A DNA stretch of 64,000 nucleotides from positions 682,001 through 746,000 of the forward strand of contig NZ_CWKH01000003.1 of the NCBI RefSeq assembly GCF_001245615.1. The letters are read 5' to 3'. Position numbers and translations under genes: made by a program. Below, piece by piece: positions 2,796-29,340 of the stretch; within the stretch, counting starts at the first letter, position 1; each line of letters opens with the position of its first letter. Under the pieces are notes generated by a model, which worked only from the letters and a program-made list of their open reading frames with translations, was not told where the DNA came from and ran no database searches. This stretch comes from Mycolicibacterium neworleansense (lineage in GTDB: Bacteria > Actinomycetota > Actinomycetes > Mycobacteriales > Mycobacteriaceae).

Positions 2796-5171
2796 CTATC
2801 TCCACAACCGGCGCTTCTCCCCCAGCACCATGCCCTGCGCCCACCACAACACCTCGATCAACGCGGCCCCGACCAGGCCGATACCCAGCGCAATGCCGGT
2901 GACCTTGAGATTCGACGGATCCAGCATGAACAGGCGCTGAGCCAGTGGCAAACAGAAGATCAGCACATACGCCAGCCCCGACCCCGCGACCAGCGCCACG
3001 CGCCACCACTCATACGGCCGGGCCACCACCGACAACACCCACAGCGAGGACACCAGCAATGTGATCAGCGCCGCCGTCGAGGCCTGCGTCTGCTCCAACG
3101 GCGTCGCGGCCCGGCCCTGATACGCCACCAAGTAGGACACGAACGTGGCGGTGCCCACCACCAGACCCGAGGGCAGCGCTGCCGTCATCACCCGCCGCAC
3201 GAATCCGGTGTGCGCCCGCTCGTTGTTCGGGGCCAGCGACAGGATGAACGCCGGGATGCCGATCGTGAACCAGGCCGCGATCGTGACGTGGATCGGCTGG
3301 AACGGGAACAGCAGCGGATCGGTGTCGAACCACTCCGCCGACAACCCGGCCAACCCCACGAGAACGGCCAGCAGCACCGAGTACACGGTCTTGGTGAGGA
3401 ACAGGTTCGAGACCCGCTCGATGTTGCCGATCACCCGCCTGCCCTCACCCACCACATAGGGCAGGGTGGCGAACTTGTTGTCCAGCAACACGATCTGCGC
3501 CACCGCACGCGACGCCGAACTGCCCGACCCCATCGCCACGCCGATGTCGGCGTCCTTGAGCGCCAGCACGTCGTTGACGCCGTCCCCGGTCATCGCCACC
3601 GTGTGGCCACGCGACTGCAGCGCATGCACCATGGCCCGCTTCTGATCCGGGCGCACCCGGCCGAAGGTGGTGTACTGCTCCAGCGTGTCCGCCAGCTGCT
3701 CGGGCTCGTGGGGCAGCTGCCGGGCATCCATCGTCTCACCGTGCAGGCCCAGCTTGCCCGCCACCGCACCCACCGACACAGCATTGTCGCCGGAGATCAC
3801 CTTCACCGAAACATGTTGGGAAGCAAAGTAATCGAGGGTGTCACCGGCGTCGGGGCGGATCCGCTGCTCCAACACCACCAGCGCGACCGGGGTTACGGTG
3901 CCCGGGGCCCGCGGGTGGTCGACGGCCAGATCCGAGGACCCGACCAGCAGCACCCGCAGCCCTTGGGCCCCGATCTGCTCGGCCTGCTCGGCCACCGGCG
4001 AGCCGGAATCCAACAGCACGTCCGGCGCGCCGATCACCCAGTTGCCGTGCTCGCCGTATGACGCGCCACTCCACTTGGTGGCCGACTTGAACGGGGCCGA
4101 CGCGGTCGCAGTCCATCCCGGCGGCATCTTATAGGCCTCGGCGATGGCCAACATGCTGGCGTTGGGCCGGGCGTCGTCGGCGGCCAGCTGCGCCAATACC
4201 TCGCCGACATCATCCTTGGTGAACGACGTGAGATCGCTTACCCGCATGCCGTTTTCGGTCAGCGTGCCGGTCTTGTCGGCACACACTACGTCGACGCGGG
4301 CCAAACCCTCGATCGCGGGCAGCTCGTTGACCAGACACTGACGCCGGCCCAGCCGCACCACCCCGACCGCGAATGCGATCGACGTCATCAACACCAGACC
4401 TTCGGGCACCATCGGCACCAGCGCACCCACCATGCGCAACACGGCGTCCTGCCAGTCGGCGCGGGTGGTGAACAACTGGGTGTAGATCGTGAGCAGCCCG
4501 GCAGGCACCAGCAGATACGTGATGAACTGCAGGATCTTGTTGATGCCGTTGCGCAGTTCGGATTTCACCAGGGTGAACTTGGAGGCCTCCTCGGCTAGCT
4601 TGGCGGCATAGGCCTCGCGCCCCACCTTGGTCGCCCGGTACGCGCCGGAGCCCGCGACCACGAAACTGCCCGACATCACCGCGTCGCCGGCGTCTTTGGC
4701 GATCGGATCGGCCTCACCGGTCAGCAGCGACTCGTCGACCTCAAGGTTGGATTCCTCGATGATCTCGCCGTCCACCACGATCTGATCGCCGGGACCGAGT
4801 TCGATGACGTCGTCGAGCACCACCTCACTGGGCAGCACCGCGCGAACACCCGATGCCCGGCGCACCGTGGGTTTGGCCTGCCCGACGATGGCGAGCTTGT
4901 CCAGCGTCTGCTTGGCGCGGATCTCCTGGATGATGCCGATCGCACTGTTGGCGATGATCAGCAGCCCGAACGCGCCGTTGATCAACGAACCGGTGGACAA
5001 CACGATCAAAAACAGCACACCGAGGATCGCGTTGATCCGGGTGAACACGTTGCCGCGGACGATCTCCGAGATGCTGCGCGCGGCACGCGTCGGGACATCG
5101 TTGCTCTTACCCTCGGCAACTCGCTGGGCCACCTCGGCTTCGGTGAGACCGGTGACATTGATCGTCGTCAT
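2796..5171 (-). CDS. ctpE: Cation-transporting P-type ATPase CtpE (Ca2+ uptake)
   Basis: The 791-residue protein has the P-type ATPase order: actuator motif T-G-E (residues 151-153), membrane motif P-E-G-L (256-259) in the fourth helix, phosphorylation site D-K-T-G-T with Asp299, and the hinge T-G-D-G-V-N-D. About ten membrane helices are visible, with a cluster near residues 640-780. The short N-terminus has no heavy-metal-binding domain. Position next to the Rv0906-like gene and the Rv0909/0910 pair identifies it as the CtpE orthologue (Rv0908), which in M. smegmatis has been linked to calcium uptake and surface integrity. ATG at 5171. Confidence 0.93.
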
Positions 5172-5237
5172 ACGCGCAGAGTCCTCGTCCCGTCTCCCGT
5201 CGTGGTGCTCAGACGACAGTTTGCCATCCGGGGGCGC

Positions 5238-6344
5238 TCAAAACTCCCACCACGGATCGAGCGCCGCAGATTCGGCGTCCACCCGTTGCCCGGGCCGCGG
5301 CACCGCGATTTGCACACCGGCCGGGTCGGCCGCCGTCAGCAACCGCCGCACCGGCTCGGCCCACGGGTGCGGGGCCAACCGGAACGTCGCCCAGTGCACC
5401 GGCACCAGCAAGCCGGAATCGGTGACGTCCAGGTGGGCGCGCACCGCTTCCTCCGGATTCATGTGAATGTCCGGCCAACTCGGGTGATACGCCCCGACCG
5501 GAAGCAGGGTGAGGTCGAAAGGACCGTACTCCGAACCGATTTCGGCGAAACTCTTCGTGTAACCGGTATCACCGCCGAAGAACGCGCGGTGCCGCGGCCC
5601 GATGAAAGCCCACGAAGCCCACAGCGTGGTGTTGCGCTCGAACAACCGGCCCGAGAAGTGCCGGGCCGGCGTGCACACCAGGGTCAGCTCGCCGATCCGG
5701 TGGCTCTCGTTCCAGTCCAGCTCGACGATCCGCTCTTCGGGTATCCGCCACTTACGCAGATGCGCCCCGATCCCCAACGGCACCACGAACGGCGCTCGCT
5801 GAGTGCGGGCCAACCCCAGCACGGTCTCGATATCGAGGTGGTCGTAGTGATCGTGGCTGATCACCACGGCGTCAACGGCCGGCAGCGCCTCCAGCGGCAG
5901 CGGCGGCTCATGCAACCGCTGCGGGCCGACCACCCGCGAGGGCGAACAACGTCGGCTCCAGATCGGGTCGGTCAGCACCCGGTATCCGTCGATCTCGACC
6001 AGCGCGGCCGAATGCCCGTACCAGGACACCGCGCAGGCCGCGGCTTCCCCGTCGGCAGGCTCGGCCAGCGGGATCGGCCCAGGCGGCCTGCTGGCCGAGC
6101 GTGGACCGAACATCTCGGCGATCAGCATCCGCCACTCCTCGCGGCTCATGCTGATCCCGGGCGAGGCCGGTTCGATGTTGACGAACACCCCGTCGGCGTA
6201 CTGCAGGGACCGCTGCGCTGCCGGGCGGATATCGCGGGGCAGGGCACCCACCGAGGCGTAGGTGCCGTTCAGCGCGCGGAACAACCACCCGCCGGCCAGC
6301 AGTGACGCCGACCTGGCCCCCAACCGCAGCGCAGCGCGCAGCAC
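5238..6344 (-). CDS. MBL-fold metallohydrolase (NAPE-PLD-like, Rv0906 type)
   Basis: The 368-residue product carries the metal-binding motif H-D-H-Y-D-H ('VISHDHYDHLD') and a later 'FGGDTGYTKSF' metal-binding loop, as in NAPE-phospholipase-D/UlaG-like lactamase-fold hydrolases. The N-terminal region 'GVFVNIEPASPG' is typical of that subgroup and the first 20 or so residues are hydrophobic. I chose GTG 6344 because it begins one base after the echA6 stop and gives nearly the length I recall for Rv0906 (372). Longer frames only extend into echA6. It is in an operon with echA6 upstream; ctpE follows 66 bp downstream. The likely substrate is a phospholipid or phosphodiester, not proven. Confidence 0.85.
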   Translation of the reverse strand: MLRAALRLGARSASLLAGGWLFRALNGTYASVGALPRDIRPAAQRSLQYADGVFVNIEPASPGISMSREEWRMLIAEMFGPRSASRPPGPIPLAEPADGEAAACAVSWYGHSAALVEIDGYRVLTDPIWSRRCSPSRVVGPQRLHEPPLPLEALPAVDAVVISHDHYDHLDIETVLGLARTQRAPFVVPLGIGAHLRKWRIPEERIVELDWNESHRIGELTLVCTPARHFSGRLFERNTTLWASWAFIGPRHRAFFGGDTGYTKSFAEIGSEYGPFDLTLLPVGAYHPSWPDIHMNPEEAVRAHLDVTDSGLLVPVHWATFRLAPHPWAEPVRRLLTAADPAGVQIAVPRPGQRVDAESAALDPWWEF

Positions 6345-6345
6345 G

Positions 6346-7080
6346 TCAGGCCCCGATGAAGTTCGGCGGCCGCTTCTCGATCCGCGCCACCTGCGCCTCG
6401 ATGACGTCCTTGGACGCCCACGCCTTGTCGAACAGCTCCTTGTGCGCCGGCCACGACTCCTCGTACGCACCGTCGTCGTTGAGGACACGCTTGGCGTGCT
6501 GAAGCGCCAGCGGCGCGAACCCGGCCAGCTCGGCCGCCCACTTCTGCGCGTCGGCCAGCGTGCCGATGCGGTTGGCCATCCCGGTCTGCAAGGCGGTCTC
6601 GGCCGTGAGCTTCTCGGCACCGAGCAGCATGCCGCGCGCCCGGCCGTAGCCGACCAGCGAGGTCAGCCGCCGAATGCTCCAGTTGTCCAAGGCCAGGCCG
6701 TACTTCGCCACCGGGAACTGGAAGTAGGCATCGGGGGCGACGACCCGCAGATCACAGATCATCGACAGGATCACGCCCGCCCCGATCGCCGGACCGTTGA
6801 TCGCGCCGATCACCGGAACCGGGGCCTTGTCGATCGCCAGGTTCAGCGCCAGCGCCTTGTCAGGAAGCTTCTCGGCCATCCCCGCGGCGTCACTGAGGTC
6901 AGCACCCGAACTGAACACCGGACCGGCTCCGGTCAGCACGATGGCCCGGATGTCCTGCTCGGCGGCATGCTCGACCGCCTCCCGCAGGGAGTCGACAAGC
7001 TCGCAGTTCAGCGCGTTGCGCCGCTCCTCGCGTTGCAGTTCCAGGGTCAGGACACTGCCGTCTCTGGTCACACCAATCAT
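6346..7080 (-). CDS. echA6: Enoyl-CoA hydratase-like protein EchA6
   Basis: The 244-residue crotonase-fold protein has the oxyanion-hole strands 'FSSGADLSD' and 'GPAIGAGV'. Length, sequence and neighbours match EchA6 (Rv0905), which has been reported to bind acyl-CoA and pass it to the FAS-II system for mycolic acid synthesis without hydratase activity, and to be the target of the THPP inhibitors. The usual catalytic Glu positions look substituted ('GPAIGAGV' where hydratases have a conserved acid), in line with a binding role. It is divergent from accD3 (26 bp between the starts) and co-transcribed with the MBL hydrolase. Confidence 0.88.
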
Positions 7081-7106
7081 GTGGCCAGCCTATATAGGCT
7101 CGGGGC

Positions 7107-8579
7107 GTGAGTCGGATCGGCGCCCGCGCGCTTCGTGATGCAGTGCTCGACGAAGGCTCGTTCCACAGCTGGGACGCCCCGCCCCTGGAGGTCGCCCGTT
7201 CCGAGGATTACCAGCGCGAACTGGCCGAGGCGAAGGCGTTGACGGGGCTCGACGAATCCGTGCTGACCGGCGAAGGGACCATCTTCGGCCGCCGCGTGGC
7301 CGTGGTGGCCTGCGAGTTCGACTTCCTGGCCGGGTCGATCGGGGTGGCCGCCGCCGAGCGGATCACCGCCGCAGTGACCAGAGCCACAGCCGAGGGGCTG
7401 CCGCTGCTGGCCTCACCGAGCTCCGGCGGCACGCGAATGCAGGAAGGCACCGTGGCGTTCCTGCAGATGGTCAAGATCGCCGCCGCCGTCGAACTGCACA
7501 AGAAGGCCCATCTGCCTTATCTGGTGTACCTGCGCCATCCGACCACCGGCGGTGTGTTCGCCTCCTGGGGTTCGCTCGGCCATGTCACCGCCGCCGAACC
7601 CGGCGCGCTGGTCGGCTTCCTCGGCCCGCGGGTGTACGAGCACCTGTACGGCGAACCGTTCCCCTCCGGTGTGCAGACCGCCGAGAACCTGCACGCCCAC
7701 GGCGTCATCGACGGAGTGGTGCCGCTGGCGCTGCTGCGCGACACCCTGGACCGCACGCTGCGGGTGGTCGTGGACACTCCGGTTCCGCCGACCGCAGCCG
7801 CGGCGCCCGAACCGCTGCCCGACGTACCGGCCTGGGAATCGGTGCTGGCGTCGCGACGGCCCGACCGCCCCGGCGTGGGCTATCTGCTGCGGCACGGCGC
7901 CACCGACCGGGTGCTGCTCTCCGGGACCGAACGGGGCGAGGCCGCCACCATGCTGCTGGCCCTGGCCCGGTTCGGTGGGCAGCCCGCGGTGGTGCTCGGC
8001 CAGCGCCGCAGCGAGGGCGGACTGGTCGGCCCCGGCGCGCTGCGTGAGGCCCGGCGCGGCATGGCGTTGGCGGCCGGACTGCAACTGCCGCTGGTCCTGG
8101 TGATCGACACCCCGGGACCGGCCCTGTCGATCGAGGCCGAGCAGGGCGGGCTGGCCGGTGAGATCGCCCGCTGCCTGGCTGAACTGGTCACGCTGGACAC
8201 GCCCACGGTGTCGGTGCTGATGGGCCAGGGCAGCGGCGGGCCCGCGCTGGCGATGGTGCCCGCCGACCGGGTGCTGGCCGCCGCGAACGGCTGGCTGGCC
8301 CCACTGCCACCCGAGGGAGCCAGCGCGATCGTGTATCGCGACACCGCACACGCCGCGGAACTGGCTGCGGCGCAAGGGGTTCGCTCGACAGACCTGCTGC
8401 GGACCGGCATCGTCGACGCGATCGTGCCCGAGCGTCCCGACGCCGCCGACGAACCACGCGCCTTCACCGAGCGATTGTCGGCCGCCATCGCCGGCGAGCT
8501 CGCGGCGTTGCGTGCGGTGCCCGGCGAGCAGCGACTACAGACGCGGTTGGAGCGTTACCGGCGCATCGGGCTGGGCTGA
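7107..8579 (+). CDS. accD3: Acetyl/propionyl-CoA carboxylase carboxyltransferase subunit AccD3
   Basis: GTG at 7107; 490 residues with two tandem crotonase-like halves. The N-terminal half has 'SGGTRMQEGTVAFLQM' and 'GGVFASWGSLGHV'; the C-terminal half has 'GQGSGGPALAMVPADRV' and 'LPPEGASAI'. These are the AccA/AccD oxyanion loops for the acyl-CoA and carboxybiotin sites. Unlike E. coli AccD there is no zinc-finger N-terminus. The size is close to Rv0904c (495). It supplies malonyl-type extender units for fatty acid synthesis and sits divergently from echA6, which serves the same lipid pathway. In M. tuberculosis the next gene is prrA; here about 22.7 kb intervene. Confidence 0.9.
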   Translation: MSRIGARALRDAVLDEGSFHSWDAPPLEVARSEDYQRELAEAKALTGLDESVLTGEGTIFGRRVAVVACEFDFLAGSIGVAAAERITAAVTRATAEGLPLLASPSSGGTRMQEGTVAFLQMVKIAAAVELHKKAHLPYLVYLRHPTTGGVFASWGSLGHVTAAEPGALVGFLGPRVYEHLYGEPFPSGVQTAENLHAHGVIDGVVPLALLRDTLDRTLRVVVDTPVPPTAAAAPEPLPDVPAWESVLASRRPDRPGVGYLLRHGATDRVLLSGTERGEAATMLLALARFGGQPAVVLGQRRSEGGLVGPGALREARRGMALAAGLQLPLVLVIDTPGPALSIEAEQGGLAGEIARCLAELVTLDTPTVSVLMGQGSGGPALAMVPADRVLAAANGWLAPLPPEGASAIVYRDTAHAAELAAAQGVRSTDLLRTGIVDAIVPERPDAADEPRAFTERLSAAIAGELAALRAVPGEQRLQTRLERYRRIGLG

Positions 8580-8585
8580 GATCCT

Positions 8586-8641
8586 CGTGCGTAACGCCAC
8601 GGCGAAAATCAGGCGGATATTTCGCCGTGGCGTTACGCACG
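8586..8641. repeat. Perfect 22-bp-arm palindrome after accD3
   Basis: The arms 8586-8607 and 8620-8641 are perfect reverse complements around a 12-base loop, and carry the core CGTAACGCCACG. It starts 7 bp after the accD3 stop, so it may end accD3 transcripts. The same 12-base core returns at 9508-9519, at the end of the next gene, which suggests an interspersed repeat or cassette boundary. Confidence 0.8.
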
Positions 8642-8675
8642 CGAACCTGTCGGTGGCGCTCGGCACACTTCGGCC

Positions 8676-9512
8676 GTGGGGGAACCATTCATCGGCAGCG
8701 AAGTGCTGGCAGCGGGCCGACTGACCCGCTACGAGTTGCGGAGCCGGTTCGTCGCGGTGCATCACGACGTGTACGTCGCGAAAGGCACCTTGCCGACCGC
8801 GGTTCTGCGGGCCAAGGCCTGCTGGTTGCGGTCCAGGCGTCGTGGCGTGCTGGCAGGTTTCTCGGCGTCCGCTCTTCACGGTGCACGATGGATCGATGCC
8901 AACCGGCCCGCATACATCATCGACAGCAATCGTCGGCCCGCACGCGGAATCGTCGCGTGGGCAGACGCGATCGACGACGACGAGATCTGCCTCATCGGCG
9001 GAATGCGGGTGACCACGCCAGTGCGTACCGCCGTCGATCTGGCATGCAAGTTTCCGGAGGACACCGCGGTAGCCGCAATCGACGCCTTGGCCAGAGCAGC
9101 GCGACTGAAGGCCGCTGATATCGCCCTGGCCGCCGAGCGCCACGTCGGACGTAGGGGTATCAGGCAGGCGCTGACCAGCATTGCACTAGTTGATCCGGGC
9201 TCGGAATCCCCGCGCGAAACCTGGTTGCGGCTGTTGGTCGTTCGCGCCGACTACCCTCCCCCACAGACTCAGTGCCCCATCTACAACGAATACGGCGCAC
9301 TGATCGGTGAGGCCGATATGGCGTGGCCGGAGCTGAAGATCGCGCTGGAATACGAGGGGCGCCACCACACCGACCCTGACCAGTTCCGGAAGGACATCGC
9401 CCGGGTCGACGCGATGATCGATGCAGGCTGGATCGTGATCAGAGTTACCTCACGTGACGGCGAGGCCTCAGTTCTCGGCAAGCTCCGAAAAGCCTGGGCA
9501 TCGCGTACGTAA
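8676..9512 (+). CDS. DUF559/Vsr-like endonuclease-fold protein with AbiEi-like N-terminus
   Basis: GTG at 8676; 278 residues. The N-terminal 100 residues ('LTRYELRSRFVAVHHDVYV') resemble the winged-helix AbiEi antitoxin-type domain. The C-terminal part has 'GEADMAWPELKIALEYEGRHH' followed by 'RKDIARVDAMIDAGWIVIRVT', the E-x-D...E-x-E pattern of DUF559, a PD-(D/E)xK nuclease relative of Vsr. Such genes are common solitary accessory genes in mycobacteria; the true function is not known. It stands alone between accD3 and a convergent membrane gene. A palindrome lies upstream and the palindrome core CGTAACGCCACG overlaps its TAA stop, so it may have moved as a cassette. Confidence 0.75.
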   Translation: MGEPFIGSEVLAAGRLTRYELRSRFVAVHHDVYVAKGTLPTAVLRAKACWLRSRRRGVLAGFSASALHGARWIDANRPAYIIDSNRRPARGIVAWADAIDDDEICLIGGMRVTTPVRTAVDLACKFPEDTAVAAIDALARAARLKAADIALAAERHVGRRGIRQALTSIALVDPGSESPRETWLRLLVVRADYPPPQTQCPIYNEYGALIGEADMAWPELKIALEYEGRHHTDPDQFRKDIARVDAMIDAGWIVIRVTSRDGEASVLGKLRKAWASRT

Positions 9513-9519
9513 CGCCACG
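9508..9519 (+). repeat. Second copy of the CGTAACGCCACG repeat core
   Basis: The 12-base core CGTAACGCCACG matches the left arm of the palindrome at 8590-8601 in the same orientation and contains the TAA stop of the DUF559 gene. The inverted partner arm is missing here, so this is a half-copy. The two copies flank the gene as direct repeats. Confidence 0.6.
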
Positions 9520-9525
9520 CGCCCG

Positions 9526-11532
9526 TCATACCTCGATCGGCGGGTGCAGCCTGTCCATGGTGTATTGCCGGTCTCTTCGCGCGGCCCACGAACTGGCCGC
9601 CAGCGAAACCACCAGCACACCGGCCAGCACCGCGATCGCGATCCACAACCGCGAATCGATCCCGCCGACGATCAACTGGCGAAGGCCGTTGACCGCGTAG
9701 GTCATCGGGTCCACCGGGTGCAGGATCTGGAACGGTTTGGCCGTGGTCTCCACCGGGTAGATGCCGCCGGCCGAGACCAGTTGCAGCATCAGAAAAGCCA
9801 GCGTGACCACCCGGCCCACCGACACCCCGAACAGCGCGTTGAACGCCTGGATCAGGGCCAGGAAGGTGCCCGCGACCAGCAGCAGGAACGCCACGGTGGC
9901 CATCGGGTACTTGGCCTGCAGCCCCACCCCGAAATGCACCACCACGTACATCACCACGACCTGGCAGACCACGATCAGCAGGGCGGGCCAATAGGAGGCC
10001 AGCACCACCCGCAGCGCGCCCAGCCCGTTGACCACCGGGCGGGACTGCAACGGCTTCAACAACATCCAGATGATGAGCGCGCCGATGAACAGCGCCAGCG
10101 GCAGGAAAAACGGCGCAAAACCGGTGCCGAAGGTGGCAGCCGGGTTGTGCGTCTCGATGTCCAGCGCCACCGGTGCGGCCAGGGTGCGCGCCACCTCGGT
10201 GCGCTGTTGCGGAGTCCAGGACGGGACCTGGGTGGAGCCTTCTTTGAGCGCGGTGGCCAGTTGCTGATTGCCGGCCTGCAGCTTTTCCGTTCCCGCGGCG
10301 AGTTCGCCCGCCCCGCTGGACAGTTGGCGCCCACCGTTGGCCAGTTGCACCAGGCCGCTGTTGAGCCGCTGGGCGCCGTCGTTGAGTTGGTGCGCACCGT
10401 CGCGCAATTTGACGACGTCGGAGCGCAACCCGCCGGTGACCGCCTTGGTGATGAACACCCGCAGCTTGCTGTTCGGATCGCCCAGCTCGCTCTCCAGTTG
10501 GGTGGCGTTGTCGCGCAACCGGATCAGACCCTCGTCCGTGGTGGGGTCCAGCCCGCGAGCCTGCAACAGCCGCTGCGCACCGGCCAGGAACTCCCCGGTG
10601 TCGCGCACCGTGGGATCGGGGCTGTTGCGCAGGATGCCGACCGCTTGATCGACGATCGCTGCGGCCTGGGCCTGATCGATGTTCAGCGCCGCAATCCGGT
10701 CGGTGGTCGAGCGCACCGCACCGGACAACCGCTGCGCGGCCATGCCAACCTCATTGGGGTCCAAGCCAAGTCCGCTGACCCGGTCGAGCACAGTCAGCAA
10801 CGGATCGGTTGCCTTGTCGACCGCCGTCGACAACTGCCTGGTGCCCGCGGCCAACTGCGAAGACCCGTCCCGCGCGGTGACCAGACCTGCGGTCAGGGCG
10901 TCGGCGCCGGCGGACAACCGGTGCGCACCGTCATTGGCCGCCGCGCTGCCGGTGGCCAACTGCTGCGCACCGTCGGCCGCCTTGACCAGACCGGCCCCGG
11001 CGTCGGTCAATCCGGTCAGCACGGTGCCGACGGTGCGTTCGCCGATGTTGGCGTTGATCTGGTTGATCACCTCACGAGCGGCGTTCTGGCCGATGATCGA
11101 ACCCAGGTAGTTGTTGGCGTCGTTGAACGTGAAGCGGACATTGGCCTGATGCGGCGAGCCACCGGACGGGGAGGTGATGCTGGTGCTGAAATCCTCGGGC
11201 AGCGTGATCGAGAAGTAGTACTTGCCGCTGGCCACCCCGTCGGCCGCCTCATGTGCCGAAACCCGGTGCAGCTGAAGTTGACCCGAATCCACCAGCGCAT
11301 CGGAGACCTCGTCACCGGCCTTGATCTGCTGCCCCTCCGCGACTGTGCCACGGTCCTCGTTGACCAGCGCCACCGGAACCTTGTCCACCTCGCCGAACGG
11401 GTTCCAGAACGCCCACAGATACATCGCGCCGTACAGCAGCGGCAGCAGGATCACCGTCACGAGCGCGATCCGCGGCATCGTGCCGCGTGAGAAGCGTTTG
11501 AGGTCGGTGCCCAACGACATTCCGGCTAGCAC
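9526..11532 (-). CDS. YhgE/Pip-family membrane protein
   Basis: About 668 residues. One N-terminal membrane helix ('VTVILLPLLYGAMYLWAF') is followed by a large extracytoplasmic region with heptad-like repeats ('RLSAGADALTAGLVTARDG', 'LNDGAQRLNSGLVQLANGG'). Five or six membrane helices fill the last 200 residues. This is the YhgE/Pip (phage infection protein-like) architecture, which overlaps ABC-2 permeases in its C-terminal part and links to secretion or envelope functions. GTG 11532 begins 2 bp after the upstream gene's stop, with AAAGGTGG ahead; ATG 11520 is an alternative. The pairing with the ABC-like protein upstream implies one complex. A substrate cannot be named. Confidence 0.8.
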   Translation of the reverse strand: MLAGMSLGTDLKRFSRGTMPRIALVTVILLPLLYGAMYLWAFWNPFGEVDKVPVALVNEDRGTVAEGQQIKAGDEVSDALVDSGQLQLHRVSAHEAADGVASGKYYFSITLPEDFSTSITSPSGGSPHQANVRFTFNDANNYLGSIIGQNAAREVINQINANIGERTVGTVLTGLTDAGAGLVKAADGAQQLATGSAAANDGAHRLSAGADALTAGLVTARDGSSQLAAGTRQLSTAVDKATDPLLTVLDRVSGLGLDPNEVGMAAQRLSGAVRSTTDRIAALNIDQAQAAAIVDQAVGILRNSPDPTVRDTGEFLAGAQRLLQARGLDPTTDEGLIRLRDNATQLESELGDPNSKLRVFITKAVTGGLRSDVVKLRDGAHQLNDGAQRLNSGLVQLANGGRQLSSGAGELAAGTEKLQAGNQQLATALKEGSTQVPSWTPQQRTEVARTLAAPVALDIETHNPAATFGTGFAPFFLPLALFIGALIIWMLLKPLQSRPVVNGLGALRVVLASYWPALLIVVCQVVVMYVVVHFGVGLQAKYPMATVAFLLLVAGTFLALIQAFNALFGVSVGRVVTLAFLMLQLVSAGGIYPVETTAKPFQILHPVDPMTYAVNGLRQLIVGGIDSRLWIAIAVLAGVLVVSLAASSWAARRDRQYTMDRLHPPIEV

Positions 11533-11534
11533 GG

Positions 11535-12275
11535 CTACTCGCCACCTTTCTGCGAACCGGCCAGTTCGGCCACGGTCGTGTTCGGTACGGTCACCTGCGC
11601 CCGCATGGCCGAGGCCAGATGGCCGGGCACACCGTTGACGGTCGCGGTGATCACCGTCTGCTTCTCCCCCAGCGCGATCAGCCGGCCCAGCAGAATGTCC
11701 CGGTTGCGGTCGTCGGTGAGGTGGTCGAGGTTGCCGACCACCAGCAGCCGCGGGGTCGAGGTGTTGGCCAGCGCGATGCGCAGCAGGATCTGATCGAGCT
11801 CGGTGAGCCCGTCGAAATACGACGTCAGCGACGGCAACGGCAGCTCGCCGAACACCGGCGCACACATGGCCGCCAGGTCATCCTGGTCGGCCCGGCCCAC
11901 CAGGGTGTACCAGGGTGCATCCCAGCGCCGCTGCTCGGTCACCAGGTCGCGGACCGTCACCGACTCCGACACCGTGTCGAGCTCATCGATCCCGGCCAGC
12001 GCCGCGGTGCGGAAGATGTCGGACGCCCGGGTGCGCCCGAACACGGTCAGCTGACCGCCCGCCGGCTTCATCCGTCCGGCCAGTGTCATCAGCAGCGCGG
12101 TGCGACCGGTGCCCGCCGGGGCGACCAGCACGGTGACGCCACCGTCGGCGATGTCGAGGTCGATGGGCCCGTACACCGGGCCCCACGGGCCACGCATCGT
12201 GATGCCGCGCGCAGTGAGGACCGGTGGCTTTTGCTCGTCCTCGCCGGTGTCAGGCTCGAGACTTTGCTCAGGCAT
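11535..12275 (-). CDS. ABC-type ATP-binding protein with degenerate motifs, partner of YhgE/Pip
   Basis: About 246 residues from ATG 12275 (GTG 12281 is possible). The fold order is that of an ABC nucleotide-binding domain, but the motifs are altered. Walker A reads A-P-A-G-T-G-R-T, with Arg in place of the invariant Lys. The signature region is 'GLTELDQILLRIALA' rather than LSGGQ. Walker B is 'LLVVGNLDHL', without the D-E pair. It may therefore bind nucleotide weakly, or regulate without hydrolysis. The stop lies 2 bp before the YhgE/Pip gene, so the two are coupled. The longer frame upstream to 12470 lacks similarity and crosses the M-box promoter region. Confidence 0.75.
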   Translation of the reverse strand: MPEQSLEPDTGEDEQKPPVLTARGITMRGPWGPVYGPIDLDIADGGVTVLVAPAGTGRTALLMTLAGRMKPAGGQLTVFGRTRASDIFRTAALAGIDELDTVSESVTVRDLVTEQRRWDAPWYTLVGRADQDDLAAMCAPVFGELPLPSLTSYFDGLTELDQILLRIALANTSTPRLLVVGNLDHLTDDRNRDILLGRLIALGEKQTVITATVNGVPGHLASAMRAQVTVPNTTVAELAGSQKGGE

Positions 12276-12463
12276 AGGCACATCACAACACATCGGGCGG
12301 GTGCGCACAGGCAACCACAAACCCCGGACACCCGCCGATTCTCGGGTGAAGGCAGCGCAAACGCTGGGCGGCTTGCGGTGACGGCGATCACGATCAAGGC
12401 GTGATGTGCCATACCCGAACAGGCACAACCGATTTGGCGTCGCAGACCTGACAGGCAACCGTG

Positions 12464-12493
12464 TTGACAATTTCGCGGTGTAGGGTTTCTAAT
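12464..12493 (+). promoter_or_regulatory. SigA-type promoter ahead of the M-box
   Basis: TTGACA at 12464-12469 and TCTAAT at 12488-12493 are 18 bp apart. The transcript would start about 12500, just where the riboswitch sequence begins. The remaining stretch 12282-12463, between this promoter and the divergent ABC-like gene, shows no gene or other clear signal. Confidence 0.6.
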
Positions 12494-12502
12494 GAAAACC
12501 GC

Positions 12503-12664
12503 GCTTCGTTAGGTGAGGCTCCTACACGAACACAGGCCACTGATCCGACGACGTCGAGAGACGCCCAGGGTTAGGACAGGTCTTCCCGGCCTAAGGGATG
12601 ACCCGAAGTGGCTTCCCACCTGCGGTGGGACACGTCGTGTAGTGCCAAAGCTCTGATGAGGAAG
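12503..12664 (+). ncRNA. M-box (ykoK leader) magnesium riboswitch
   Basis: The sequence follows the M-box consensus closely: TCGTTAGGTGAGGCTCCTAC near 12506, ACAGGCCACTGATCC, a GTCGAGAGACGCC turn, CCAGGGTTAGGACAGGTCTT, CCCGGCCTAAGGGATGACC, and GTGCCAAAGCTCTGATGAGG at the end. M-box RNAs fold on binding Mg2+ and shut off magnesium transporter genes. Just downstream, GAGGAAGT (12658-12665) can pair with ACTTCCTC (12702-12709) around a GGCCATATGGCC hairpin (about 12687-12698), a candidate expression platform with no T-run. The first large gene downstream is a magnesium P-type ATPase, which fits the role. Confidence 0.9.
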
Positions 12665-12784
12665 TGCTCGCGCCTCCCGGCGCGTCTGGCCATATGGCCG
12701 AACTTCCTCTTCAGCGCGTTCGCATCTGACGATTGCGTCAGGACCAGCGCCCTGTGCGCCCGACAGCGAGGAGGTGACGACGAC

Positions 12785-12868
12785 ATGACGTCAAGTGACA
12801 GTCCGTATCCCAGTCCGATTCGAAAACGTCTGTCCATAAGCACCTTTCCGCTGTCGATGACTGCCTAG
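12785..12868 (+). CDS. Possible 27-residue leader peptide between M-box and mgtA
   Basis: ATG 12785 follows a near-perfect ribosome binding site, AGGAGGTGA at about 12770-12777. The peptide begins 'MTSSDSPYPSPIRKRL' and ends 'PLSMTA' before TAG. The S-P-Y-P-S-P run is of note because proline-rich leader peptides sense low Mg2+ through slowed translation ahead of enterobacterial mgtA and mgtCBR. Whether that applies here is inference. No homologue is recognised, and the peptide could simply be spurious translation of the 5' UTR. Confidence 0.4.
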   Translation: MTSSDSPYPSPIRKRLSISTFPLSMTA

Positions 12869-12949
12869 ACCCACCCCGCACACCCCGCGGTGGGCGGTTG
12901 CCGCACGCCATTCGACGCGGAGAGCTCCGATTCAACTGGAGATGATCCG

Positions 12950-13123
12950 ATGCAGCGCAACACTTTTCTTCGTCATGCTCACGGCTTGATCACCGGCCCG
13001 ATCGCGTGGATCCACACCCGCGCGTCGCTGACCCCGCAGGAGCGGCACAACCTGAGGATGAGCAACACCCCGGTGGCGGTCCTGACCGCATCGCTGGGCG
13101 GTGGCTCACATACCCCTCGTTGA
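12950..13123 (+). CDS. Small protein of 57 residues upstream of mgtA, unknown
   Basis: ATG 12950 has GGAG eight bases upstream. The product starts 'MQRNTFLRHAHGLITGPIAW' and contains 'SLTPQERHNLRMSN'. It is basic with one weakly hydrophobic stretch (residues 12-21), with no clear signal peptide or membrane helix. I recognise no family. It sits 82 bp after the leader peptide and 132 bp before mgtA on the same transcript, so it would be under M-box control. It could be a small regulatory subunit of the transporter or a non-functional frame. Confidence 0.35.
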   Translation: MQRNTFLRHAHGLITGPIAWIHTRASLTPQERHNLRMSNTPVAVLTASLGGGSHTPR

Positions 13124-13255
13124 GCGAGTAGCCCAAATCAATTCGATCCGAACCCCTTTCATTCCGCGCACCACCTCAAGTCCACCGAATCGGTCCTCCC
13201 CCAGGCGGTTCGGTGTGACTTGTGGTGCGCGCTCACCACCGACTGGAGCCCACAG

Positions 13256-15943
13256 ATGAACGCCGCTGTCGAGCAAACCGCCCTGACGCCCACCAAGCAC
13301 GACGACCGCCGTCTGCCGCTGCGTGCGGCCGAGGAAGCTCACAACGATGTGGACGTCACGCTGGCCAACGTGAGGGCCCACCTCGACGGCCTGACCATCG
13401 AAGACGCCGCCCAACGCCTCGCCTGCGACGGCCCGAATGAAGTCGCCCACGACAAGGCGCCGCCCGCGCTGCTCCAGTTCCTGGAGGCCTTCAAGAACCC
13501 GTTCATCGCGGTACTCGTGGCGCTGGCCGCCATCAGCTCCGTCACCGACATCTACCTTCCCCTCCGCGCCGGGCAGGACGCGGACTACACCGGCGTCTTG
13601 ATCATCGTGATCATGGTCGGGCTCAGCGCCCTGCTGCGGTTCTGGCAGGAGTACCGCTCGGGCAAGGCGGCCGAGACACTCAAGGCGATGGTGCGGACAA
13701 CCGCGACAGTGCGGCGCCGGGCCAGCCCACATGCCACACCCGAACTCATCGAGATCCCGATGGCGCAGATCGTCACCGGTGACATCGTCCAACTGTCGGC
13801 CGGCGACATGATTCCGGCCGACCTCCGCCTGATCGATTCTCGCGACCTGTTCGTCAGCCAGGCAGCGCTGACGGGCGAGGCCCTGCCGGTGGAGAAGTAC
13901 GACACCTGCGGCGCCGACGACGAAGCCGACCCGCTCGACCTGCCCAGCATCTGCTTCATGGGCACCAACGTCGTCAGCGGCACGGCCACCGCGGTCGTCG
14001 TATCAACCGGCGTACACACCTATTTCGGCTCGCTGGCCAAGGCGGTCGTGGGCTCTCGTGCCGAAACGGCCTTCGACCGCGGCGTCAACAGCGTCAGCTG
14101 GCTGCTGATCAGGTTCATGTCGGTGATGGTGCCGATCGTGTTGTTCATCAACGGTTTCACCAAAGGCGACTGGCCCGAGGCGTTCCTGTTCGCACTCGCC
14201 GTCGCGGTCGGCCTCACCCCCGAGATGCTGCCGATGATCGTGTCGTCCAACCTGGCCAAAGGTGCCGTCGCATTGTCGCGTCGCAAGGTCGTGGTCAAGC
14301 GACTCAACGCGATCCAGAACTTCGGCGCGATGGACGTGCTGTGCACCGACAAGACCGGCACGCTCACCCAGGACCGGATCATCCTCGAGCATCACACAAA
14401 CGTCCGGGGCGATCGGGACGACAACGTGCTGGCCCTGGCCTGGCTCAACAGCTTTCATCAGAGCGGCGTCAAGAATCTGATGGATCGCGCTGTCCTGCAC
14501 TTCGCCGAAGGTATGCCCGAAGCGCTGCTCGCCGCGTCGTCGGCCTACCGCAAGGTTGATGAACTTCCGTTCGACTTCGAGCGCCGCCGGCTGTCCGTCG
14601 TCGTATCCGACGCCGACCGTGATCACCTACTGATCTGCAAGGGAGCGGTCGAGGAGATGCTCGCCGTGTCGACCCAGGTGTGGGACGGCGCAGCGGCCCG
14701 GGCCCTCACCGATGCCGACCGCGAGGCGCTTTCCGCAACAGCCCGCGACTACAACCGCGAGGGGTTCCGGGTGCTGCTGGTGGCCACCCGGGAGATCCCG
14801 CGCATCGAGTGCACCCACCGATACCGAGTCGAGGACGAGCGCGACCTCGTCATCCACGGCTTCCTGACCTTCCTCGATCCACCGAAGGAGACGGCCGCAC
14901 CGGCCATCACTGCACTGGCCGAACACGGAGTCACCGTGAAGGTCCTCACCGGTGACAACGAGGTGGTCAGCGCCAAGATCTGCCACGACGTGGGTCTCGA
15001 TCCCGGACAACCCGTTCTCGGCCCCGAGATCGATGCACTCGACGACGACGAACTGCGAGGCGTCGTCGACGAGACCACCGTGTTCGCGAAGCTCACGCCC
15101 CTGCAGAAGTCGCGCGTGCTGCGGGCACTGCAGGCCAACGGACACACCGTCGGATTCCTGGGCGACGGCATCAACGACGCACCGGCACTGCGTGACGCGG
15201 ATGTGGGCATCTCGGTCGACACCGGCACCGACATCGCCAAGGAATCGGCCGACATCATCCTGCTCGAAAAGAGCCTGATGGTGCTCGAGGAGGGCGTGAT
15301 CAAGGGCCGCGAGACGTTCGGCAACATCATCAAATACCTGAACATGACCGCCAGCTCGAACTTCGGCAACGTGTTCTCGGTATTGGTGGCCAGCGCCTTC
15401 ATCCCGTTCCTGCCCATGCTGGCGATCCACCTGCTGATCCAGAACCTGCTGTACGACATCTCGCAGCTGGCGCTGCCGTGGGACCGCATGGACAAGGAGT
15501 TCCTACTCAAGCCGCGCAAGTGGGACGCCAGGAACATCGGCCGGTTCATGATCTGGATGGGACCGACGTCCTCCATCTTCGACATCACCACCTTCGCGGT
15601 GATGTGGTACGTGTTCGCGGCCAACTCTCCTGAGATGCAATCGCTGTTCCAGTCCGGCTGGTTCATCGAAAGCCTGCTGTCGCAGACACTGGTCGTGCAC
15701 ATGCTGCGCACCCAGAAGATTCCGTTCATCCAGAGCACCGCGGCGCTGCCGGTACTGCTGACGACCGGGGCGGTATGCGTGCTCGGGATCCTCATCCCGT
15801 TCTCGCCGCTGGGGGCCGCCGTCGGATTGCAGCCCCTGCCGTGGGGGTACTTCGGATGGCTCGTCGCGACGCTGGTGTCCTACTGCGTCGTCGCTCAGAC
15901 CGTCAAGACCATCTACATCCGCAGGTTCGGTCAATGGTTCTGA
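13256..15943 (+). CDS. mgtA: Magnesium-translocating P-type ATPase, MgtA/MgtB type
   Basis: About 895 residues. Motifs in order: T-G-E-A-L-P-V-E-K in the actuator domain, the fourth-helix motif 'VGLTPEMLPMIV', phosphorylation site D-K-T-G-T-L-T with Asp365, 'KVLTGDNE' and 'GDGINDAPALRDADVGISV', then six C-terminal helices. The 'LTPEMLPMIVSSNLAKGA' stretch is characteristic of type IIIB Mg2+-ATPases (MgtA/B) rather than Ca2+ or K+ pumps. ATG 13256 has GGAG upstream; a longer start at 13220 lacks one. The M-box riboswitch about 600 bp upstream supports Mg2+ import as its role. Inner membrane. Confidence 0.9.
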   Translation: MNAAVEQTALTPTKHDDRRLPLRAAEEAHNDVDVTLANVRAHLDGLTIEDAAQRLACDGPNEVAHDKAPPALLQFLEAFKNPFIAVLVALAAISSVTDIYLPLRAGQDADYTGVLIIVIMVGLSALLRFWQEYRSGKAAETLKAMVRTTATVRRRASPHATPELIEIPMAQIVTGDIVQLSAGDMIPADLRLIDSRDLFVSQAALTGEALPVEKYDTCGADDEADPLDLPSICFMGTNVVSGTATAVVVSTGVHTYFGSLAKAVVGSRAETAFDRGVNSVSWLLIRFMSVMVPIVLFINGFTKGDWPEAFLFALAVAVGLTPEMLPMIVSSNLAKGAVALSRRKVVVKRLNAIQNFGAMDVLCTDKTGTLTQDRIILEHHTNVRGDRDDNVLALAWLNSFHQSGVKNLMDRAVLHFAEGMPEALLAASSAYRKVDELPFDFERRRLSVVVSDADRDHLLICKGAVEEMLAVSTQVWDGAAARALTDADREALSATARDYNREGFRVLLVATREIPRIECTHRYRVEDERDLVIHGFLTFLDPPKETAAPAITALAEHGVTVKVLTGDNEVVSAKICHDVGLDPGQPVLGPEIDALDDDELRGVVDETTVFAKLTPLQKSRVLRALQANGHTVGFLGDGINDAPALRDADVGISVDTGTDIAKESADIILLEKSLMVLEEGVIKGRETFGNIIKYLNMTASSNFGNVFSVLVASAFIPFLPMLAIHLLIQNLLYDISQLALPWDRMDKEFLLKPRKWDARNIGRFMIWMGPTSSIFDITTFAVMWYVFAANSPEMQSLFQSGWFIESLLSQTLVVHMLRTQKIPFIQSTAALPVLLTTGAVCVLGILIPFSPLGAAVGLQPLPWGYFGWLVATLVSYCVVAQTVKTIYIRRFGQWF

Positions 15944-15969
15944 GCGGCACTCGGTGGCATTGTGTCCAC

Positions 15970-16893
15970 ATGACCGTGTCAAGGACCTACCCGTCCGGTG
16001 TGCCCTGCTGGGTCGACACCGACCAGCAGGATGTGGCTGCCGCCCAACACTTTTACGGGCGGCTGTTCGGCTGGACGCTCGAGAACGTGCTGCCCGACGA
16101 CGCCGAGGATTCCTACCTGATCGCCACGCTGGACGGTCATGACGTGGCCGCGATCGCGTCTGCGCAGTCCGGGGACGAGATCGCCTGGAACACCTATGTG
16201 GCGGTGGACGACGCCGAGACGACGGCCACCGCGGTGACGGCTGCCGCCGGAACCGTGACGAGCGGGCCGGTCGACGCCGGGCCGGGCGGGCGGCAGGCCG
16301 GTTGCGTCGATCCCCGCGGCGCGCACTTCAAACTGTGGCAGCCGCGGCGACGCCTCGGCGCCCAGCTGGTCAATGTGCCCGGCACCTGGAATTTCAGCAA
16401 CCTGCAGACCAGCGATCCGCAGGCGGCCGCCACCTTCTACGGGCCGCTGTTCGGCTGGGAGTTCGACAACGCCGGGTTCGCGACGATGATCCGCCGCCCG
16501 GGTTACGCCGACCACCTCGCCGCGACCGTCGACCCCGACATCTTGGACCGCCACGCCGCCACCGGCACGCCGCCCGGGTTCTCCGACGCGGTGGGCTGGA
16601 TCGGGCAGCTCGCCGACGAGCAACAGCCCGAGCACTGGCAGGTGGCGTTCGCCGTGGCGAACCGCGACGATTCCGCAGCGCTGGCCGAAAAGCTCGGCGC
16701 CGCAGTAATTTCCAGCGACGACGCCGAATGGACGAAATCCGCCCTGATCCAGGACCCGCAGGGCGCCCGGCTGGTGCTGAGCCAGTTCAGCCCGCCGGAA
16801 GGCCGGTCACCATGCGGTTGCGCGTGCGGTAGAACAGCACCGCAGCACCGATCACCACCTCCGCCAGCGCCAGGCACATCGTCAAGCTCATGA
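15970..16893 (+). CDS. Two-domain VOC (glyoxalase-like) protein
   Basis: ATG 15970 gives 307 residues, with two tandem VOC units. Unit one spans about residues 1-125 ('FYGRLFGWTLENV' ... 'DPRGAHFKLWQP'); unit two about 135-265 ('FYGPLFGWEFDN' ... 'DPQGARLVLSQF'). This layout is shared with mycobacterial proteins of the LppY/CFP30-like VOC group, whose enzymatic role is largely unknown. The last 40 or so residues after 'LSQFSPPEG' are Cys/Pro/Ser-rich, unlike the family, and overlap the convergent membrane gene by 107 bp. This hints that the natural stop may have been lost by mutation. Confidence 0.75.
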   Translation: MTVSRTYPSGVPCWVDTDQQDVAAAQHFYGRLFGWTLENVLPDDAEDSYLIATLDGHDVAAIASAQSGDEIAWNTYVAVDDAETTATAVTAAAGTVTSGPVDAGPGGRQAGCVDPRGAHFKLWQPRRRLGAQLVNVPGTWNFSNLQTSDPQAAATFYGPLFGWEFDNAGFATMIRRPGYADHLAATVDPDILDRHAATGTPPGFSDAVGWIGQLADEQQPEHWQVAFAVANRDDSAALAEKLGAAVISSDDAEWTKSALIQDPQGARLVLSQFSPPEGRSPCGCACGRTAPQHRSPPPPAPGTSSSS

Positions 16894-17191
16894 GCGTCGA
16901 CTGTGCGGGCATCGTTGCGGCACCGGCCCCGTGATGGTGGCTCGGCATGGGCGTGTGCACGGCGATCATCGCCAGGTTCATCAGCGCGACCGTGCACCAC
17001 ACGCTCGGTGTGCCCCGCTGCCACAGATCACGCGCGCAGTACAGGCAGCCGATGATCATCGTGACCAGTAGTCCCCCGACGACAGCGTTGCCGGCGTGAC
17101 CGAGCATCAGCACGTGCAGCAGTGCCGAACTCGCGGCGAGCAGCGCACACGCCCGCCGTCCGAGGACGGCGGACGTGTGAACAGCGGACAT
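16787..17191 (-). CDS. Small four-helix membrane protein, unknown function
   Basis: The 134-residue protein shows four hydrophobic segments at about residues 11-30, 36-50, 64-78 and 100-120. A His-rich loop 'MPSHHHGAG' lies between the third and fourth and could bind a metal. The sequence resembles the DUF5134-like small membrane proteins of actinobacteria, but I am not sure of the family. It overlaps the convergent VOC gene by 107 bp at its 3' end. The upstream region to the asparaginase gene (17192-17372, divergent) may hold promoters for both. Confidence 0.6.
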   Translation of the reverse strand: MSAVHTSAVLGRRACALLAASSALLHVLMLGHAGNAVVGGLLVTMIIGCLYCARDLWQRGTPSVWCTVALMNLAMIAVHTPMPSHHHGAGAATMPAQSTLMSLTMCLALAEVVIGAAVLFYRTRNRMVTGLPAG

Positions 17192-17372
17192 GGCCTAATC
17201 CTCGCAGCAATGCGAGTCCGGTGCGGCGGGAACGTGGCGTGCACACCGGCCGAACGTCGGCTTGTGTGCCAGAAATCGGCCGAATCTCGACCACAAGGCA
17301 ACATTCGGCACCGCAACTCATGCGCTGGCGAAAGCCCGGTGCGTGTTCACATATCGCCGTAGCGTCTGCCCT

Positions 17373-18452
17373 ATGACGAACTTCGCAGCCCGCCGGTCCC
17401 GGTCGCGTCTGGCGATGGGGACAGTCCTTCTCGCCGCCGCGCTCACGGCCGCCTGTTCGACCAACACGACCTCGACCGACACCACGACGAACACACCTGG
17501 AGCCAAGGGTGACTCGGCACCGGGCCGGGTTGTGGTGATCACCACCGGGGGCACCATCGCGACGAGCACCGACGCCAACGGCGTGCGCCGCCCGACGGTC
17601 AGCGGCGCCGACCTGGCGGCCGGACTCGACGTCCAGGTCATGGACGTGATGAAGAAGGACAGTTCACAGCTGACCCCGGCCGACTGGGACGTGATCGGAG
17701 CGGCCGCCAAGAAGGCGGTGGCCGACGGCGCTTCCGGCGTGGTCATCACCCACGGCACCGACACCATGGAAGACACCGCCATGTGGTTGGACGTCACGTA
17801 CAACGGGCCGGCACCGATCGTGCTGACCGGGGCCCAGCGCAGCTCCGACGCCCCCGATGCCGACGGACCGACGAACCTGCGCGACGCGCTGACCGTGGCG
17901 TCCAGCCCTGCCGCCCGCGACCAGGGCGTGATGATCATGTTCGCCGGTGACGTCTTTCAAGCCCTGGGGACCCACAAGGTGAACACCCAGGACATCCACG
18001 CATTCGGCGGCACACCACCGATCGGATCCGTCGCCGACAACACCTTCACGCTGGACCACCCCGCACAGCGGCCCTTCCTCGGGGAGGTACCGGCGGTCAG
18101 CGCGCCGCGGGTCAACGTCGTCGCGGCCTACCCTGGCGACGGCGCCGGCCCGGTCGATGCCGCGGTGGCCGCGGGAGCGCGCGGAATCATCCTGGAAGCA
18201 CTGGGATCCGGCAACGCCGGTGACGGCGTGGTGGATGCGGTGCGCCGACACGCTCCGGCCGGGGTGGCCTTCGGAATCTCCAGCCGCGTCCCGACCGGGG
18301 AGGTCGTCGCCGAATACGGTCCCGGCGACGACATGGTCAAGGCCGGCGCGGTGATGGTTCCGCACCTGCGGCCCAGCCAGGCGCGAGTGCTGATGATGGC
18401 CGCGCTGGCCACCGGCAAGCCGGTGGTCGACACGATGAAACGCTGGGGCTAA
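17373..18452 (+). CDS. Lipoprotein type-II L-asparaginase
   Basis: ATG 17373 gives 359 residues. The signal peptide has a basic start, a hydrophobic core and a lipobox L-T-A-A-C with Cys28, followed by a Ser/Thr-rich linker. The catalytic domain carries both asparaginase signatures: T-T-G-G-T-I-A (57-63) with the nucleophile Thr, and '[13 protein letters not shown]' with the second Thr-Asp pair. It should hydrolyse asparagine to aspartate and ammonia outside the membrane, allowing nitrogen capture and local pH control. The usual length is about 330 residues, so this one is full length. It stands alone, convergent with the acyl-CoA synthetase gene downstream (4-bp overlap of the stops). Confidence 0.9.
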
Positions 18453-29304: not shown

Positions 29305-29340
29305 TGGTCCAATCTTCCCATCAGGGGCAAACGATTAACC

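Follow-up and report, generated by a model that had tools for sequence, protein, structure and literature searches.

A window of 64,000 nucleotides from Mycolicibacterium neworleansense (contig NZ_CWKH01000003.1, positions 682,001 to 746,000 of the forward strand) carries a pair of adjacent genes on its minus strand. The first encodes P0001, a protein with the predicted fold of an ATP-binding cassette (ABC) nucleotide-binding domain (NBD) in which the ATPase motifs are degenerate; the second, intact as well, encodes P0002, a membrane protein of the YhgE/Pip family. We found that both the motif loss and the pairing recur across Actinomycetota, and we lean, with somewhat better than even confidence, toward a reading in which this pseudo-NBD and YhgE/Pip form one complex, the NBD assembling or coupling YhgE without hydrolysing ATP.

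P0002 is a clear member of the YhgE/Pip family (TIGR03061/TIGR03062; phage infection protein, TC 9.B.74): its N-terminal domain scores 188.6 bits with TIGR03061 (cut-off 96.15) and its C-terminal domain 226.9 bits with TIGR03062 (cut-off 102.2), while the middle region matches the heptad-repeat family TIGR03057 in four stretches (76.6 bits) and Pfam ABC2_membrane_3 aligns with 104 bits. Its N-terminal part also resembles EsaA/YueB of type VIIb secretion (TIGR03929), at 54.8 bits; since the cut-off is 122, membership in that system was rejected. A sequence search of the PDB with P0002 returned no match at E 0.01. P0001 barely passes the Pfam ABC_tran (PF00005) threshold (25.9 bits, cut-off 25). 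Both open reading frames (ORFs) are complete and closely coupled on the same strand (Table 1), as the original prediction, made from the DNA letters of this locus, had stated. Upstream of the NBD gene we saw no sign of an attenuator (folding z −1.6), and no terminator-like or promoter-like consensus site.

That prediction had also read an Arg in place of the Walker A Lys, a vanished signature and a Walker B without its D-E pair, and alignment placed all three losses at exact residues (Table 1). Canonical motifs are the rule among the other ABC domains checked in the same genome: the best-scoring ABC loci carried all three motifs in order in one frame (30/30), and 29 of the lowest-scoring ABC domains kept GxxxxGK[ST] in 28 cases, the Walker B D[EQ] in all 29 and a loose signature in 22. 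Taken together, Walker A matched in 58/59 and Walker B in 59/59; this base rate covers 59 of a genome with 96 ABC_tran matches, some 35 others lying outside the count.

Table 1. Coordinates of the gene pair and of the degenerate motifs of its NBD-like protein (positions in the window).
Feature	Position	Strand	Remarks
NBD-like (pseudo-ABC ATPase) gene, P0001, 246 amino acids	11535..12275	−	ATG at 12275, stop ends at 11535; Pfam and model
YhgE/Pip membrane protein gene, P0002, 664 amino acids	9526..11520	−	ABC-2 membrane C-terminal part; xxxLxxG heptad repeats mid-protein
Intergenic gap, 14 nucleotides, genes co-directional	11521..11534	−	Same length at 24 of 47 loci measured
Walker A equivalent, residues 52-59, APAGTGRT (Lys replaced by Arg58)	12099..12122	−	Sequence and alignment
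Signature equivalent, residues 157-161, LTELD instead of LSGGQ	11793..11807	−	Alignment
Walker B equivalent, residues 177-182, LLVVGN instead of hhhhDE (Gly181-Asn182)	11730..11747	−	Alignment
Asn214, H-loop region (TVITATVN), Asn rather than His	11634..11636	−	Invariant in 45 aligned orthologues

The same substitutions are found in orthologues. A search for related loci gave 46, one of which (L054, a short P-loop match) was left unextracted; each of the 45 others (L009-L053) has a YhgE relative downstream in the same orientation, both genes being damaged in L052, a metagenome bin. Leaving out L052 and adding the window gene yielded an orthologue set of 45 sequences, which takes in Gordonia and one Corynebacterium bin. 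At the position of the Walker A Lys this set has Arg in 43 sequences, Ile in one, Ala in one and Lys in none, and the adjoining P-loop Thr59 is kept in 44. The Walker B Asp position is occupied by Gly in 42, Ala in two and Asp in one, with no catalytic Glu, so that the set holds no orthologue with canonical motifs. At the H-loop site all 45 have Asn, in a part of the alignment loose enough that only two of five canonical controls aligned on their His. The ratio of nonsynonymous to synonymous substitutions (dN/dS), computed against 11 relatives, was 0.12-0.25 for the NBD and 0.04-0.18 for YhgE, and a family profile matched 77 times in 66 of the 151 genomes of the window's taxonomic family, without a single internal stop. 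Because dN/dS is well below 1 and the frames are intact, we rejected a pseudogene; and because the substitutions recur in relatives and dN/dS is so low, we rejected sequencing error and chance.

Pairing proved just as regular at wider taxonomic scales. TIGR03062 scored over its cut-off in 51 of 150 genomes of the window's order, and an NBD-like ORF was present in 53 of the 55 order-level regions (L085-L139), 52 of them detected by a profile built from orthologues only and L123 by a broader one. Both misses (L093 and L135) have a YhgE ORF cut by the contig end; L136 has another YhgE, truncated where its stretch ends, that stood outside this count. In the phylum sample 41 of 296 genomes were YhgE-positive, and we fetched 32 regions, which cover part of the YhgE places listed. 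The NBD was found in 15/15 regions from the window's class and in two from outside it (L158, L159), and 15 YhgE regions of other classes had no linked pseudo-NBD (L155-L157, with a single YhgE, and L160-L171). Eleven of the twelve loci L160-L171 hold two YhgE genes side by side, which perhaps form heterodimers; immediately after the tandem pair of L165 comes a canonical ABC exporter frame.

Across the 115 NBDs linked to YhgE that we aligned, the Walker A Lys is kept in three (L150, L158 and L159), the Walker B Asp in 53, and the catalytic Glu and an SGGQ at the aligned site in none. This count leaves out L052 and L002 (the same place as L086) and includes at least one duplicate, L018 being the same place as L098. 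LSGGQ-like (9/115) and hhhhDE (4/115) patterns do occur in these proteins, off the aligned sites except for one case taken up below, and were not accepted as motifs. Twenty further family-level NBDs, from regions picked by their NBD and hence a test of the presence of YhgE, had YhgE on the same strand in 20/20, Lys, Glu and SGGQ in 0/20 each and the Walker B Asp in 16/20. Among all 135 NBDs aligned beside YhgE in Actinomycetota, then, Lys is found in three and Glu or an aligned SGGQ in none. In place of the Lys, other lineages show V, H, I, Q, L, C, P or A. A few distant members still have GKT, which points to a stepwise loss: judging from this distribution, without formal reconstruction, the signature and catalytic Glu likely went first and the Lys next, and the group around the window gene finally lost the Walker B Asp as well.

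Pairwise distances in the NBD and YhgE trees are congruent (Mantel r 0.88, n=105; best of 999 permutations 0.10), which shows, as far as sequences tell, that the partners stay together, physical contact not being implied. The structure alignments were made without L010-L012, L014-L016, L029 and L052; L017 is missing from both, L047 and L026 from that of YhgE, and the trees were compared after removal of ten near-identical or duplicate rows. The genome of M. neworleansense itself has a second, divergent NBD-YhgE pair (C1:2881600-2892200; locus L086, identical to L002), with a divergent TetR-like gene adjoining; its NBD is likewise degenerate, with PGGWGQT at the Walker A site, and does not figure among the listed ABC_tran matches of the genome. 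The idea of a maintained, non-hydrolysing NBD, put forward for this locus, stands in that the gene is maintained and its sequence makes hydrolysis improbable; it is not peculiar to the window, the family being spread over the phylum.

Structure prediction agrees with these assignments. The AlphaFold2 model of P0001 has a mean pLDDT (predicted local distance difference test) of 89 and matches ABC NBD structures (CbiO, FtsE, PhnK and similar) with a Foldseek probability of 1.00 and TM scores on the query of 0.56-0.68 among the best 50 matches listed. The P-loop strand and helix are preserved, and on this model P0001 is predicted to keep the ABC NBD fold. Its helical part bears a conserved ExxRWxAxWY-like motif (residues 114-123; E114, W118 and W122 invariant in 37 sequences), and we know of no counterpart in canonical NBDs. 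The model of P0002 is only fair (pLDDT 69): its helices are compatible with six transmembrane helices and a large extracytoplasmic region after the first. It gave weak Foldseek matches to ABCH, ABCG, KpsM, TarG and Wzm (best E 5e-3, none at or below 0.001), i.e. ABC-2/ABCG-type membrane domains, some from lipid transporters, intermixed with coiled coils.

The locus resembles known systems in part. Like ABC-2/ABCG-type exporters, it has an NBD fold encoded upstream of an ABC-2-type membrane gene; unlike canonical ones, its NBD is devoid of the Walker A Lys, the signature and the Walker B D-E. The degenerate sites of the heterodimeric ABC exporters TM287/288, TAP and CFTR have lost the catalytic Glu, often replaced by Asp, and the signature. 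P0001 likewise lacks both, but these exporters keep one canonical site, and the window pair has no free-standing canonical NBD encoded alongside. Outside the phylum, YhgE does without such a partner: in seven plasmid-borne loci of Bacillota and Deinococcota (two of Deinococcus and one each of Allomeiothermus, Roseburia, Enterococcus, Leuconostoc and Bacillus), some of them with TetR or MarR neighbours, neither annotation nor our two NBD profiles revealed an adjoining NBD gene (7/7). Plasmid loci of Rhodococcus, Tsukamurella and two Arthrobacter, by contrast, have an NBD-like gene without the Walker A Lys; these eleven are the records examined of 63 that matched.

In earlier work, the YhgE/PIP domain is described as having no known function (PMC4999554, 2016) and putative ABC-2 superfamily transporters are reported among PIP homologues (PMC3924187). 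In the open-access literature we found no description of a pseudo-NBD beside YhgE, nor of its fusion to MMPL (see below); most subscription journals and preprints fall outside that coverage. YhgE/Pip and degenerate ABC sites are thus known separately, and their lineage-wide pairing and the fusion were not found described there. What had been proposed as an undescribed system is better seen as an undescribed variant, since YhgE/Pip is a named and widely annotated family that lacks the NBD in the seven loci above. YhgE is raised in pneumococci exposed to smoke (PMC6200755), and mutations in it occur in enterococci insensitive to a compound (PMC8754111, PMC9634178), which would fit a role in stress; in Bacillus subtilis, however, 2-butanol gives a lower level than 1-butanol (PMC11728337), and in a methanogen the level falls under lauric acid (PMC5816558), so that these reports give no argument either way.

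Some relatives join the NBD to a different transporter. In L150 a single open frame combines MMPL (RND family; 294.5 bits) with ABC_tran (56.9 bits) and is followed by YhgE; L154 is similar, its tail falling below Pfam detection. When the L150 protein was searched against 246 genomes of the class, at least 20 loci matched; few candidates were scored per genome, so the fusions are under-counted. Of the 20 matches listed, 12 have a C-terminal tail of 192-266 amino acids and a YhgE match that starts 20-77 nucleotides past the end of the frame, and the other eight have neither (L172 and L180 coincide with L150 and L154). With an NBD profile built without any fusion, 10 of the 12 tails are recovered (E 3e-10 to 2e-47; L182 and L184 are missed), compared with two of five fusions scanned for Pfam ABC_tran. 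In several tails the profile-matched parts skip the middle of the domain. The fusion loci contain only the front part of the YhgE gene, and the YhgE beside the G399 fusion is absent from the YhgE matches of the phylum sample at E 1e-30, from which we conclude that some of these YhgE proteins are divergent. The NBD gene of the window, unlike these MMPL tails, is free-standing.

We propose that YhgE/Pip, with its ABC-2-type membrane domain and putative long helical extracytoplasmic region, and the NBD-fold subunit would make up one complex in which the latter has lost ATP hydrolysis. The pseudo-NBD would be a cytosolic scaffold or coupling piece, which would dimerise or dock onto YhgE and so hold or gate it. 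Work on envelope lipids or hydrophobic compounds, if any, would not be powered by ATP at the pseudo-NBD, and energy, if needed, might come from a partner, e.g. the proton-driven MMPL pump that bears the same pseudo-NBD in some Actinomycetes. Lipids or hydrophobic compounds are the likeliest guess for what the pair handles, given the weak ABC-2/ABCG matches of the YhgE model, the MMPL fusions and a report on Saccharopolyspora hirsuta in which cholesterol raises both YhgE and MMPL genes, whose locus numbers are neighbours (PMC9782250). A bolder version has YhgE/Pip in a hybrid Actinomycete transporter that swapped ATP for another source of energy, the dead NBD being an adaptor that couples it to a proton-driven MMPL lipid pump, fused in some families and acting in trans in mycobacteria; we regard it as speculative and rather unlikely. 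ABC membrane proteins are normally defined by their ATP-driven partners. A motor-shaped subunit under selection without catalytic residues, with a few distant members in an intermediate state, is a natural experiment on how an ABC machine can do without hydrolysis. Among the YhgE/Pip proteins are phage receptors that have no known biochemical function, and the pseudo-NBD and the MMPL fusion offer concrete handles on it.

Several observations weigh against a non-hydrolysing complex of this kind. The motifs are not gone everywhere: GxxxxGKT is kept in the three of 135 NBDs named above plus a fourth, MMPL-fused L173, and L137 has a near miss of the signature, VSAGQ, three residues off the aligned site (1/115). 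Tree congruence may stem from common ancestry. In 130 of 132 loci the profile revealed no MMPL gene next to the pair, so that the fusions may be a local invention, and the authors of the S. hirsuta study consider such genes mostly unrelated to sterol degradation (PMC9782250). One genus (the ten regions L087-L096) has a full canonical ABC exporter frame after its TetR gene, on the same strand, and other canonical ABC frames are found at a greater distance in L051, L107, L108 and L117 (same strand) and in L048, L134 and L159 (other strand), which makes an ATP-driven partner conceivable in those lineages. Lastly, the conservation of Arg58 in orthologues and the Walker B Asp followed by Asp in many relatives mean that nucleotide binding is possible.

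This last point underlies the main rival, a nucleotide-sensing switch: the subunit would bind ATP or ADP without hydrolysis, and the occupied dimer would open or close YhgE according to the energy state of the cell, much as at the degenerate site of a heterodimeric ABC exporter, only on both sides. The near-invariance of Arg58-Thr59 in the orthologue set, the Walker B Asp of many relatives and the preserved P-loop strand and helix of the model all speak for it. Its weakness is that the Lys position is so varied in other lineages, that the orthologue set has also lost the Walker B Asp, a puzzling loss if selection acted on nucleotide binding, and that the two profile matches in some MMPL-fused tails skip the mid-domain; on balance we hold the switch to be rather improbable.

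Alternatively, the pair could be driven by ATP after all, through unconventional catalytic residues, a canonical NBD in trans or a nearby canonical ABC exporter. ABC heterodimers in which one half is degenerate are known, the genome offers its 96 ABC_tran matches as candidate partners, and the NBD-YhgE-TetR-exporter arrangement of L087-L096 is possibly a four-gene operon (in L093 the end of the NBD is cut off). However, a half that lacks both the catalytic Glu and SGGQ offers neither site half intact, and the exporters scanned have a membrane domain of their own, both in L051 and in L087, the one scanned of the ten, where ABC_membrane is joined by two ABC_tran stretches; the frame scanned in L117, with ABC_tran, has no such domain. 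Moreover, most NBD-linked regions, and positions 4000-20000 of the window, showed no canonical ABC frame by profile. We consider an ATP-driven pair unlikely. Less probable still is that YhgE functions alone, e.g. as a surface scaffold, with the NBD-like protein as an assembly chaperone or a disappearing vestige, because for all the YhgE genes without NBD in the seven plasmid loci and the 15 regions of other classes, and the shortened tails of some MMPL fusions, the NBD gene is under purifying selection and accompanies almost all YhgE genes sampled from the window's class.

A regulator accompanies the pair in many lineages. Within the 75 YhgE regions L085-L159, five of which have no linked NBD segment, a TetR-like gene lies directly downstream on the same strand in 41, upstream on the same strand in five, divergent in six, convergent in two and is missing in 21. 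Given the 41 directly downstream, expression is likely to be ligand-induced in many lineages with TetR beside YhgE. The window pair gave no such sign: no TetR-like ORF was found by profile between 4000 and 20000, and only four of the 45 loci L009-L053 have one.

The remaining neighbours do not follow the pair. An ORF at 13220-15943 (+), divergent from the pair and presumably an MgtA-like P-type ATPase, is preceded by an M-box magnesium riboswitch (12498-12670, +; RF00380, 140.8 bits); an MgtA-like neighbour turned up in no more than 6 of 132 loci, which all belong to very close relatives, and we therefore excluded it from the NBD-YhgE unit and rejected a link to Mg2+. The carboxylase-like neighbour (7107-8579), found in 19/132 loci, all mycobacterial, was rejected as a partner and reflects shared synteny only. 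Between it and YhgE, an ORF of 278 amino acids (8676-9512, +) looks like a variable insertion, with matches in two of the 132 loci, in L012 beside the same genes and in L023 upstream of the pair. Farther along the window, three ABC_tran domains in three long frames (625-650 amino acids; ~25796-30027, −) form a cluster of probable ABC exporters.

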